A stretch of 64,000 nucleotides of DNA from contig JAKKUO010000004.1 of the NCBI GenBank assembly GCA_021890795.1, positions 1 through 64,000 of the forward strand, in the 5' to 3' direction. Of this stretch, positions 1,722 to 20,250 are shown piece by piece. The DNA is from Bacillota bacterium. Lineage in GTDB: Bacteria > Bacillota > Sulfobacillia > Symbiobacteriales > ZC4RG38. Numbering within the stretch: the stretch's first letter is position 1; each line of letters begins with the position of its first letter. The notes under the pieces are model-generated. The model was given only the letters and a program-made list of their open reading frames with translations, was not told the DNA's origin and did no database searches. The position numbers and the translations under genes were made by a program.

Positions 1722-2675
1722 ATGCTCCCGGAGTGGCTGACCCGGCCCCCCGCCGGTCCGGTGCCCCGGCCCGCCGGGCGGCGGGTCCGGCGCCGGAGCT
1801 TCCTTGCCGCCACCCTGGCGGCGGTGCAGGCGTTCTTGGCCGACGCCCTGGGGAGCGGGCCGGTGGAGGGCGGCCGGGACGGAGGGTGGCTCGCCCGGGC
1901 CGACCCCCGGGGAAAGGTCACCGGGGTGCTCCTCCTGCTCCTGGCCGCGGCCCTGGCCCGGGAGGCCCGGACCCTCCTGGCCCTGCACCTTCTGGCGGTG
2001 GCCCTGGCTCTCAGCACGGGGCTGCCGGTAGGACGGCTGCTGCGCCGGGTCTGGATTGGGATTCCGCTCCTCACCGCGGCCATCGCCCTCCCCGCCACCC
2101 TGAGCTGGGTCCGGCCGGGGGAGCCCCTCCTGTGGCTCTGGCGGGTCGGGGAGGAGGTCCGGCTTGGCCCCCTGGCCCTCCCCGGGGAGCTGGCGGTGAC
2201 CCGGCAGGGGGTGCAGGGGGCCCTGGTGCTGGTCCTCCGCACCGGCACCTCCCTCGGCTACCTGTTCCTCCTTACCTGGACCACTCGATTCAGCGGGATC
2301 TGTCGGGGGCTCCGGGCGCTGGGAGTGCCGCCCCTCTTCGTCGCCATCCTCGCCATGACCCACCGGTATCTGGTGGTGCTGGTCCAGCTCCTCGAAGAGC
2401 TCTTCACCGCCCGGCGGGCCCGGCCTGGCGCGGTGGCGGGAGCCGCAGGGGCCCGGCCCGGCCAGGCCTTTGTGGCCGGCGCCATCGGGGTGCTCCTCCA
2501 CCGGTCAGAGGTGCTGACCCGGGAGGTCCACGAGGCGATGGTGGCCCGGGGGTTCCGGGGCGAGGTGCGGCTCTATGCCAGGCCGGACCGGAGCCGGCCC
2601 TGGCTCCTGCCCCTCCTGGCCGGGCTGGTAGGAGCGGCGGCGGTGCTGAGCGAAAGACTGCCCGGCGGGGGGTGA
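1722..2675 (+). CDS. cbiQ: ECF transporter T component CbiQ-like (transmembrane)
   Basis: 317 residues, multi-spanning membrane protein of the CbiQ/EcfT family that couples ATPase motion to the substrate-binding component. Hydrophobic segments occupy about residues 65-105, 110-130 and 170-240, and a cytoplasmic Ala-Arg coupling segment appears as MVARGFRGEV near residue 270, matching the family's A-R-G motif. It starts 7 bp after the NikMN-like gene and ends 6 bp before the ATPase gene, so the three form one operon. The first 25 residues are Pro/Arg rich; an internal start cannot be excluded. Confidence 0.88.
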   Translation: MLPEWLTRPPAGPVPRPAGRRVRRRSFLAATLAAVQAFLADALGSGPVEGGRDGGWLARADPRGKVTGVLLLLLAAALAREARTLLALHLLAVALALSTGLPVGRLLRRVWIGIPLLTAAIALPATLSWVRPGEPLLWLWRVGEEVRLGPLALPGELAVTRQGVQGALVLVLRTGTSLGYLFLLTWTTRFSGICRGLRALGVPPLFVAILAMTHRYLVVLVQLLEELFTARRARPGAVAGAAGARPGQAFVAGAIGVLLHRSEVLTREVHEAMVARGFRGEVRLYARPDRSRPWLLPLLAGLVGAAAVLSERLPGGG

Positions 2676-2681
2676 AGGGCG

Positions 2682-3482
2682 GTGGCGGAACCGACCAAGC
2701 AGGGGGAGCCGAAGCAGGGGGAGCCGATCCTTCAGGTGGAGAACGTCTGGTACCGGTACCTGGGCCGGTTCCCCGCCCTGGCCGGGGTCTCCCTCGCGGT
2801 CTACCCGGGGGAGTTCCTGGCGGTCCTGGGGGCCAACGGCTCCGGCAAGTCCACCCTCCTCCGGCTTCTCGCCGGCCTCATCCACCCCGAAAGGGGGCGG
2901 GTCCGGGCCTTCGGGGTCGAACTCAGGCCGGAGACCCTGGAGGACGCCGCCTTCGGCCCGGCCTTCCGGGCCCGGGTCGGCGTCCTCTTCCAGAACCCGG
3001 ACAGCCAGCTCTTCAACGCCACTGTGGAGGAGGAGATCGCGTTCGCCCCGCTGCAGATGGGGCTCGACGACGGCGAGGTGGCCCGGCGGGTGGAGGCGAT
3101 GCTGGCCCTGCTGGACCTGGGGCACCTTCGGGACCGGCCGCCCTTTCAGCTCAGCGGCGGCGAGAAGAAGCGGGTCGCCCTGGCCGCGGTCCTGGCCCAG
3201 GGGCCGGAGGTGCTGCTCCTGGACGAGCCCATGGCCGGCCTCGACCCCCGGTCCCAGGACCACCTGGCAGACCTTCTGGCCGAACTCCACCGCCACGGGC
3301 GGACGATTGTGATGGCCACCCACGACCTGGAGGCGGTCCGGCTTCTGGCCGGGCGGGTGGTGGTCCTGGGGGAGGACCACCGGGTGGCGGCCGACGGCCC
3401 CCCGGAGGCGATCCTCCAGGACACCGCCCTCCTCCGGGCGGCGAACCTGATCTCCGCCCGGGGCCGCCGGTCCCGGGACTGA
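2682..3482 (+). CDS. cbiO: ECF transporter ATPase CbiO-like
   Basis: 266 residues, cytoplasmic ABC ATPase energising the nickel/cobalt ECF transporter. Walker A is GANGSGKST near residue 50, the Q-loop reads LFQNPDSQLF, the signature is LSGGEKKRVALA and Walker B is VLLLDEPMAGLD; the switch His follows in MATHDLE. The GTG start follows GGGGGGTGAAGGG. The QNPDSQ Q-loop is typical of ECF ATPases. It is the last gene of the hypF-side operon and is followed by a strong terminator hairpin. Confidence 0.92.
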   Translation: MAEPTKQGEPKQGEPILQVENVWYRYLGRFPALAGVSLAVYPGEFLAVLGANGSGKSTLLRLLAGLIHPERGRVRAFGVELRPETLEDAAFGPAFRARVGVLFQNPDSQLFNATVEEEIAFAPLQMGLDDGEVARRVEAMLALLDLGHLRDRPPFQLSGGEKKRVALAAVLAQGPEVLLLDEPMAGLDPRSQDHLADLLAELHRHGRTIVMATHDLEAVRLLAGRVVVLGEDHRVAADGPPEAILQDTALLRAANLISARGRRSRD

Positions 3483-18048: not shown

Positions 18049-19056
18049 TCAATCCCCCGGAGGGGCGGGCGCAGGTAGCGACCCGGGGGACGATCCAGGC
18101 GGTGCGGGTGCAGGTGCCGACCCGGGAGGCGACCCCGGCGGCACTGGCGCAGGTGACGGCCCGGGAGGCGACCCCGATGGCGGCGACGGCCTGGCGGGCG
18201 CCGGGGGCGCGGCGAAGTACCGGGCGAGGCCCAGGAAGATCGCGTGGGCGAGCCGGTCCTGGTACGCCGGGTCCCGGAGCCGCTGCTCCTCTTCGGCGTT
18301 GGAGAGGAAGCCGACCTCCACGTTGGCAGCCGGGACCGGCGACCGCTCCAGCACCAGCTGCTTGATGGGCCGGTGGGTCCGGGTGGTCCCGGTCAGCTCC
18401 CGTAGGGCCTCCTGGAGGACCCGGGCCAGCCGCTCCCCCTCCGGCCGGCCCCGGGGATCGTAGAAGACCTGGGCCCCCTGCCAGCGGCTGTTGCGGCCAA
18501 GGGCATTGGCGTGGATGGAGAGGAGCACCTCCGCCTGATGGATCTCCGCCAGCCGCACCCGGGCCATCAGCTCCTGCCGCCGGCGGGTGGTCTCCGTGGG
18601 CACCGCCTGGGCCCGGAGATCGGTGTCCGTCTCCCGGGTCAGCACCGGCCGGGCGCCGGCCAGGACCAGCAGGTCCCGGAGCCGGAGGGCGACGGCCAGG
18701 GTGATCTCCTTCTCCGGCGTCCCGGCCACCCCCACCACCCCGCCGTCGGGACCCCCGTGGCCGGGGTCGAGGACGATGACCCTTCCCTCCAGGGCCCGGG
18801 CCACGGACTCGGGACTGGCTCCGGCCTCCGGCGGGGGCTCCGGCCGCCCGGCCCGGGAGCGAGTACCGGTCCACAGCCCCCCGGCCAGGGCAGCGGCGAC
18901 GAGCAGGCCCACCAGGGCCGCCCGTCCCGGCCGCGGTGCCGGCCCCCGCCGGCCCTGCCCGCTCCGCCTGGTCCCGGGCCGCCAGCCCAGCCGCGCCCCC
19001 AGGAGGGCTGCCCATCCCGGCCGCCGGTCGCCCCGGTGCCCCGGCCCTCGGCCCAT
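18049..19056 (-). CDS. cwlD: N-acetylmuramoyl-L-alanine amidase, CwlD-like
   Basis: 335 residues. An Amidase_3 domain follows one N-terminal membrane helix (about residues 46-64): VIVLDPGHGGPDGG holds the first zinc His, EITLAVALRLRDLL the Glu, and LLSIHANA the second His, with VEVGFLSN near the end. CwlD acts in spore cortex to form muramic lactam, which fits the sporulation genes nearby, but a vegetative role is possible. The last 50 residues are imperfect Pro/Gly/Ala/Ser repeats (PPGSxPGS-like units, nt 18050-18200), longer than usual CwlD. The first 40 residues are Arg rich. Confidence 0.82.
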   Translation of the reverse strand: MGRGPGHRGDRRPGWAALLGARLGWRPGTRRSGQGRRGPAPRPGRAALVGLLVAAALAGGLWTGTRSRAGRPEPPPEAGASPESVARALEGRVIVLDPGHGGPDGGVVGVAGTPEKEITLAVALRLRDLLVLAGARPVLTRETDTDLRAQAVPTETTRRRQELMARVRLAEIHQAEVLLSIHANALGRNSRWQGAQVFYDPRGRPEGERLARVLQEALRELTGTTRTHRPIKQLVLERSPVPAANVEVGFLSNAEEEQRLRDPAYQDRLAHAIFLGLARYFAAPPAPARPSPPSGSPPGPSPAPVPPGSPPGSAPAPAPPGSSPGSLPAPAPPGD

Positions 19057-19094
19057 CGCCCCTGCCCCCTTTCTGCCGCTGCCGCCCCAAGGGT

Positions 19095-19739
19095 ATGCGG
19101 CCGCCGGGCCGGCCTTGCCAGTCCCGGATCGGGGCCAGGATCCGGGGGGTGCACCGGTTCCTCCACCGGGTCTGGGCCCTGGTCCAGCGATACCGGCAGC
19201 AGGGCCGGGACCGGGAGCCCGCCGGCCCCTCCCCCGACCGGCTCCGGACCCTCCACCGGACGGTGGCCCGGGTGACCCGGGACCTGGAGGGCCTGCGGTA
19301 CAACACCGCGCTGGCGGCGCTCATGGAGTTCGCCAACAGCCTCCAGGCCCAGGACCTCCTCAGCCGGCAGGAGGTGGAGACCCTGCTGCTGCTTCTGGCG
19401 TCCTTCGCCCCGTACATCACGGAGGAGCTGTGGGAGCAGATCGGCGGCCCCTTCTCCATCCACCACCAGCCCTGGCCCACCTACGACCCGGCCCTCGCCG
19501 AAGAGGAGGGCTGGGAGGTGGCGGTCCAGGTGAACGGCCGGGTGCGGGAGGTGCTCCGGCTCCCGCCCGGGGAGAGCCAGGAGGCGGTGCTGGCCGCAGC
19601 CCTGGCCGCGCCCCGGGTGGCGGCTGCCCTCCGGGGCCGCCCGGTACGCCGGGTCTACTACGTGCCGGGCCGGCCCCTCAACCTGGTGGTGGACAGGGAG
19701 GCAGCCGGGCCGAGACCGGACGGGGAGGCGGCCGGGTAA
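19095..19739 (+). pseudogene. leuS: Leucyl-tRNA synthetase C-terminal fragment
   Basis: The frame encodes the anticodon-binding and C-terminal domains of LeuRS only: RGVHRFLHRVWALV (normally after the catalytic core), then FAPYITEELWEQIGG, WPTYD and VAVQVNGRVREVLRLP, with GRPVRRVYYVPGRPLNLVV at the end. There is no HIGH, KMSKS or editing domain; upstream lies the divergent cwlD. It could start at ATG 19095 or GTG 19149, which follows an AGGATCCGGGGG stretch. Most simply it is a remnant of a second leuS; a stand-alone tRNA-binding protein is an alternative. Codon use and reading frame are well preserved. Confidence 0.8.
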
Positions 19740-19783: not shown

Positions 19784-19818
19784 GGCAAGAAACGGGCCCG
19801 CGGCCTGGCCGCGGGCCC
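19784..19818 (-). terminator. Terminator of the rplM-rpsI operon
   Basis: Stem GGGCCCGCGGC/GCCGCGGGCCC with a 3-nt loop, followed on the minus strand by GTTTCTTGCC; 33 bp beyond the rpsI stop. Confidence 0.75.
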
Positions 19819-19851: not shown

Positions 19852-20250
19852 TTAACGCTTGGAGAACTGCGGCGCCTTCCGGGCCTTCTTGAGGCCGTAC
19901 TTCCGGCGCTCCTTCATCCGCGGGTCCCGGGTGAGGAAGCCGCCCTGCTTCAAGATCGGGCGCAGGTTGGCGTCTGCCTTCACCAGTGCCCGGGCGATGC
20001 CGTGCCGGACCGCACCGGCCTGGCCGCTGATGCCGCCACCCACTACCCGGGCGATGACGTCAAACTTCCCCAGGGTCTCGGTAACCACCAGGGGCTGCTG
20101 CACCATCACCTGCAGCGCCTTGATGGGGAAGTACTGTTCCAGGGGCCGACCGTTGATCACGATGTTCCCAGTGCCGGGGAGCAGGCGCACCCGGGCCACG
20201 GCTTCCTTCCGCCGGCCAGTGCCCCAGAACTGGGCGGTCGCAAGAGCCAT
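19852..20250 (-). CDS. rpsI: Ribosomal protein S9
   Basis: 132 residues, standard length. It binds 16S rRNA in the 30S head, and its C-terminal Lys-Arg tail reaches the P-site tRNA. The start [16 protein letters not shown] and the end [12 protein letters not shown] are family hallmarks, and [19 protein letters not shown] is intact. It lies 24 bp after rplM, its normal partner, and is the last gene before a terminator. Confidence 0.97.

Follow-up and report, generated by a model that had tools for sequence, protein, structure and literature searches.

A stand-alone leucyl-tRNA synthetase C-terminal frame that is very probably the 3' remnant of a second leuS gene

Architecture of the locus

Listed in Table 1 are the features of the locus under study, which lies within a 64,000-nucleotide stretch of DNA (hereafter the window), along with those of the corresponding locus in the second species of the genus (genome G001, hereafter the sister). 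The open reading frame extends on the plus strand from the first possible start, GTG 18936, to position 19739, and thus spans 267 amino acids. The initial annotation had described this region as containing only the C-terminal part of leucyl-tRNA synthetase (LeuRS), and three matches bear this out. Positions 648-842 of the 843 in TIGR00396 (leuS_bact) correspond to residues 68-252 of the frame (E 3e-31), the Pfam Anticodon_1 match covers residues 103-217 (E 4e-21), and residues 681-876 of the 878 in the Thermus thermophilus LeuRS (1h3n) correspond to residues 69-252 (E 1e-27). In these family and structure matches both the anticodon-binding bundle and the C-terminal domain are present and gap-free. 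The window fragment lacks the HIGH and KMSKS motifs, the catalytic core, and the CP1 editing domain, the homology beginning only at model position 648. It comprises ∼193 LeuRS codons and an in-frame insertion of approximately nine codons near its 3' end, the latter being absent from the sister.

The fragment is positioned between a divergent cwlD-like amidase gene and a convergent rpsI, and the same two genes flank leuS2, as the LeuRS gene at this locus will be called, in the sister. The best NCBIfam model for the amidase is spore_cwlD, with a score of 183.9 bits against a cut-off of 221.6. Both cwlD and tdk, which lie to the left of the fragment, are transcribed away from it. The terminator scan did not flag the hairpin on the rpsI side, as there is no T-run after it. 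The promoter scan gave no match between window positions 18900 and 20000, and no T-box or other RNA element reached significance between 18500 and 20500. Note that the AGGA ahead of GTG 19149, the start named in the initial annotation, is a weak possible Shine-Dalgarno sequence, such that translation from this codon would be possible given a transcript.

Table 1 Features of the leuS2 locus in the window and in the sister (contig QGUP01000027.1, designated L033)
Feature	Position	Strand	Evidence or remark
Window: cwlD-like amidase, divergent neighbor	18049..19056	-	Amidase_3, E 2e-39; same neighbor in sister
Window: intergenic flank in frame with ATG 19095, non-LeuRS	19095..19133	+	Aligns upstream of sister leuS2 promoter
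Window: deletion junction	19131..19133	.	Left flank matches L033 up to 3112; right flank matches L033 from 4812
Window: LeuRS anticodon-binding bundle and C-terminal tRNA-binding domain, open frame, probable 3' remnant of leuS2	19134..19739	+	TIGR00396 positions 648-842; 1h3n 681-876; L033 4812-5387
Window: candidate start GTG	19149..19151	+	AGGA at 19137-19140, 8 bases upstream
Window: G+C-rich hairpin between leuS2 remnant and convergent rpsI	19794..19818	.	Read from sequence; kept in sister
Window: rpsI, convergent neighbor	19852..20250	-	ORF and synteny; named from sequence; same neighbor in sister
Sister: sigma-70-like promoter, TTGACA-17-TAGAAT	L033 3169-3197		11/12 matches
Sister: T-box leader (RF00230), 5' part	L033 3208-3406		E 1e-10
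Sister: T-box antiterminator part	L033 3513-3572		E 2e-4; contains AGGGTGGTACCGCG
Sister: leuS2 N-terminal frame	L033 3647-4408		ATG 3647; 254 clean codons; motif PYPSAEGLHVGN
Sister: leuS2 frameshift	near L033 4410		Inside start of CP1 editing domain
Sister: leuS2 internal deletion and further frame change	near L033 4545		Most of CP1 and second half of catalytic domain gone
Sister: leuS2 C-terminal frame	stop at L033 5390		KMSKS region, bundle, and C-terminal domain

The deletion junction and the broken gene of the sister

The sister locus lies on one contig with ∼6x coverage, and both genomes are metagenome assemblies. As can be seen from Table 1, the sister gene is ordered as promoter, T-box leader, N-terminal half, frameshift, internal deletion, KMSKS region, and C-terminus. 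From its reading frames, the sister leuS2 as assembled cannot give rise to an active LeuRS. Neither of the two known species of the genus has an unbroken leuS2, and in both of them its C-terminal frame is open.

Comparison of the two loci defines the junction. Window positions 19079-19130 match sister positions 3061-3112 exactly over 52 bases, at least 39 bases ahead of the sister's promoter. From position 19134 onward the window aligns with L033 4812-5387 at a DNA identity of 93.6%. Missing from the window is 1.7 kb of the sister arrangement, namely the promoter, the T-box, the start codon, the N-terminal half, and the KMSKS region. Read against the sister, a single deletion is what removed everything from the promoter through the start of the anticodon-binding bundle, and the expression signals of leuS2 were lost with it. 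In this comparison of two species, the deletion may either have followed the sister's lesions or have been independent of them. The contig of the window is unbroken across the locus. A search of the window's genome, which is rated 100% complete, for the 5' part of leuS2 returned DNA matches only to leuS1, metG, and T-box homologues.

The initial annotation had placed ∼195 LeuRS codons in the interval 19095-19739. The LeuRS content is ∼193 codons, the homology starts only at 19134, and neither the alignment to the sister nor that to the family model reveals LeuRS-derived sequence upstream of that position. Indeed, ATG 19095 belongs to the intergenic flank, with positions 19095-19130 being identical to sister sequence located upstream of the promoter.

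Origin of leuS2 and selection on its 3' end

The initial annotation had proposed that a full-length leuS be sought elsewhere and compared with the fragment. The window's genome contains one full-length LeuRS gene, leuS1 (851 aa, contig C98), which is preceded by a T-box with the Leu specifier CUC, and an intact leuS1 is also present in the sister. The fragment and leuS1 display an identity of only 43-44% and differ in LeuRS type, and thus the fragment is neither a piece nor a recent copy of leuS1.

A tree built on N-terminal halves places leuS1 among the LeuRS sequences of its order (support 100/98). The sister leuS2, in contrast, falls within another clade (100/99) that shares the signature AEGLHVGN and whose members derive from Gemmatimonadota and from a number of other families in the class to which the window belongs (f9, f37, f42, and f46). 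The single sequences nearest to it are ∼70% identical and belong to f37. The C-terminal tree pairs the window and sister leuS2 sequences (100/100) and places the pair weakly (63/68); the clade assignment of leuS2 was consequently based on the sister's gene in the N-terminal tree. This membership in a different, HVGN-bearing LeuRS clade makes horizontal gain by the ancestor of the genus the simplest account, and the most likely one.

The T-box of the sister leuS2 (L033:3208-3572) shows ∼75% DNA identity to the T-box of metG in the window's genome. The specifier position is occupied by AUG in the metG T-box, by CCG, which is a Pro rather than a Leu codon, in the sister leuS2, and by CUC in leuS1. 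A relative in f37 also carries a T-box with CUC ahead of leuS. On the basis of these comparisons, metG may have been the local source from which the leuS2 leader was captured, and the leader has perhaps itself decayed. The metG region is found on two contigs of the window's genome (C25 and C51, or L185 and L184, of G000) that are 99.94% identical over 1755 bases, which is probably assembly redundancy. No report on the genus, or on a second leuS under T-box control, came up in the literature searches.

Over the 192-193 codons shared by window and sister there are 37 base differences, 17 of which fall at codon positions 1 and 2. The dN/dS ratio of the fragment, calculated by NG86 from this pair and mixing the time before and after inactivation, is 0.29 (bootstrap 0.15-0.56). 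The corresponding NG86 values are 0.255 for the leuS1 C-terminus, 0.123 for the whole of leuS1, 0.087 for truA, 0.098 for tdk, and 0.196 for ecfT. NG86 was employed given that the YN00 dS is unstable at this G+C content, and two misaligned cwlD rows were left out of the table of ratios. The distribution of differences over codon positions in the fragment departs from the neutral 2:1 (p 0.013), and the share at positions 1 and 2 is greater than in the housekeeping neighbors (p 0.02). The fragment is more relaxed than those neighbors, and its evolution since the two species diverged has not been neutral throughout. Since its ratio resembles that of the leuS1 C-terminus, both leuS2 copies were probably under selection until recently. 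The ratio would fit either recent inactivation in both lineages or a C-terminus that is still constrained. The dN/dS test proposed in the initial annotation has accordingly yielded, for this one species pair, a value below 1 that is no lower than that of ordinary genes.

The frame is free of stops and frameshifts, as had been stated in the initial annotation, yet at ∼6% divergence this is weak evidence of constraint. The probability of observing no stop after ∼18 neutral changes is 0.58, and thus the open frame is uninformative. Of the 17 near-invariant residues of type B, 16 are kept in the fragment. The one lost is the first proline of the LAPFAP motif, which is a serine in the window only and a proline in the sister and in all 18 of 18 outgroups.

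Interpretation and comparison with known systems

What survives in the fragment is very probably the 3' end of leuS2, a second LeuRS gene foreign to the lineage that was gained, was redundant, and is in late, piecemeal decay. On this account the genus ancestor would have acquired leuS2 horizontally. The gene would have been redundant with leuS1 and then inactive, and would now be undergoing deletion piece by piece, its C-terminal frame still being open since the time elapsed has been too short for stops or frameshifts to arise. Ordinary gene decay is favored because the relative has the same gene broken at the same spot and a normal leuS is present in both genomes. The recent deletion remnant suggested in the initial annotation is supported in that the junction can be read against a sister that still has the 5' part. 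Against it stand the dN/dS value below 1 and the departure of the codon-position differences from neutrality (p 0.013), which could reflect either earlier selection or continued constraint on the C-terminus; the open C-terminal frame of both broken versions; and the reliance on a single sister contig of ∼6x coverage. A dN/dS below 1 also speaks for the other possibility raised in the initial annotation, a retained protein, in which translation from GTG 19149 would yield the C-terminal part of the foreign enzyme as a predicted small tRNA-Leu-binding protein serving as a chaperone or as a helper or competitor of leuS1. The gap-free domains, the 16 retained type B residues, and the AGGA located 8 bases ahead of the GTG are consistent with such a protein, and activity toward mutant tRNAs is known for the C-terminal domain of human mitochondrial LeuRS in isolation (PMC3927953). 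The promoter, leader, and native start have been deleted, however, with no new promoter match and with the left neighbors transcribed in the opposite direction. A proline kept by the sister and every outgroup has changed, and the share of changes at the first two codon positions exceeds that of the housekeeping neighbors. The initial annotation had looked to relatives for a decision. The segment is present in the sister, but it is within a broken gene, and thus its presence there is not evidence of retention; of the two species of the genus compared, the stand-alone form occurs only in that of the window. Retention of a functional protein is accordingly improbable, and nothing found positively supports it.

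Less probable still is an assembly artefact, whereby leuS2 would in fact be intact in one genome or in both and would have been truncated by a chimeric or collapsed contig. Although both are metagenome assemblies, and the sister frameshift could be a sequencing error at its low coverage, the window contig runs continuously through the locus between the same flanks as in the sister, the deleted part is nowhere else in a genome rated complete, and the large internal gap of the sister is not explicable by base error. Derivation of the fragment from the resident leuS1 by partial duplication has in its favor only the shared protein family; it was rejected on the low identity and on the trees, and is hardly credible. 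A split LeuRS was also rejected, given that no N-terminal leuS2 partner exists elsewhere in the genome and leuS1 is full length.

Two further observations concern LeuRS genes in other genomes. In G006 a second LeuRS of 626 aa (L119:2579-4459, minus strand) has HVGH and KMSKS motifs and no CP1 editing domain, the expected place of which is occupied by WIGKNDDGTYHLRDWL. It is an editing-free paralogue beside a normal LeuRS, and a partial copy of it is found in the same family at L156 (G007). In G058 a tandem trpS pair (L154:932-1930 and 2393-3391) encodes identical predicted proteins, with a leuS 3' end lying ahead of each copy. Through this arrangement, be it a tandem duplication or a repeat of the assembly, a further C-terminal fragment of LeuRS is created.

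The comparison of the two species illustrates how successive deletions remove a redundant, T-box-led tRNA synthetase gene of apparently lateral origin. It also serves as a warning that at only ∼6% divergence a stop-free, intact-looking domain fragment need not be a functional protein.

With respect to the bacterial LeuRS described by TIGR00396, the fragment is homologous along the last ∼195 model positions and is without the catalytic core, the HIGH and KMSKS motifs, and the CP1 editing domain that the family possesses. In Aquifex aeolicus LeuRS is split (alpha/beta), and the two halves together constitute the sole LeuRS. The fragment resembles that system in that a C-terminal LeuRS part forms its own reading frame, but in the window's genome the partner half has been lost and an intact LeuRS is present. 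Duplicate or laterally gained aminoacyl-tRNA synthetase genes are known, including ileS2 and the archaeal LeuRS-I and LeuRS2 (reviewed in PMC9437257). As in those cases, a second LeuRS of separate origin occurred beside the resident enzyme, whereas leuS2 is broken in both known species. Finally, the C-terminal domain of human mitochondrial LeuRS (PMC3927953) demonstrates that a module of this kind is able to act on tRNA by itself, although that domain, unlike the fragment, is an engineered construct from a distant enzyme.
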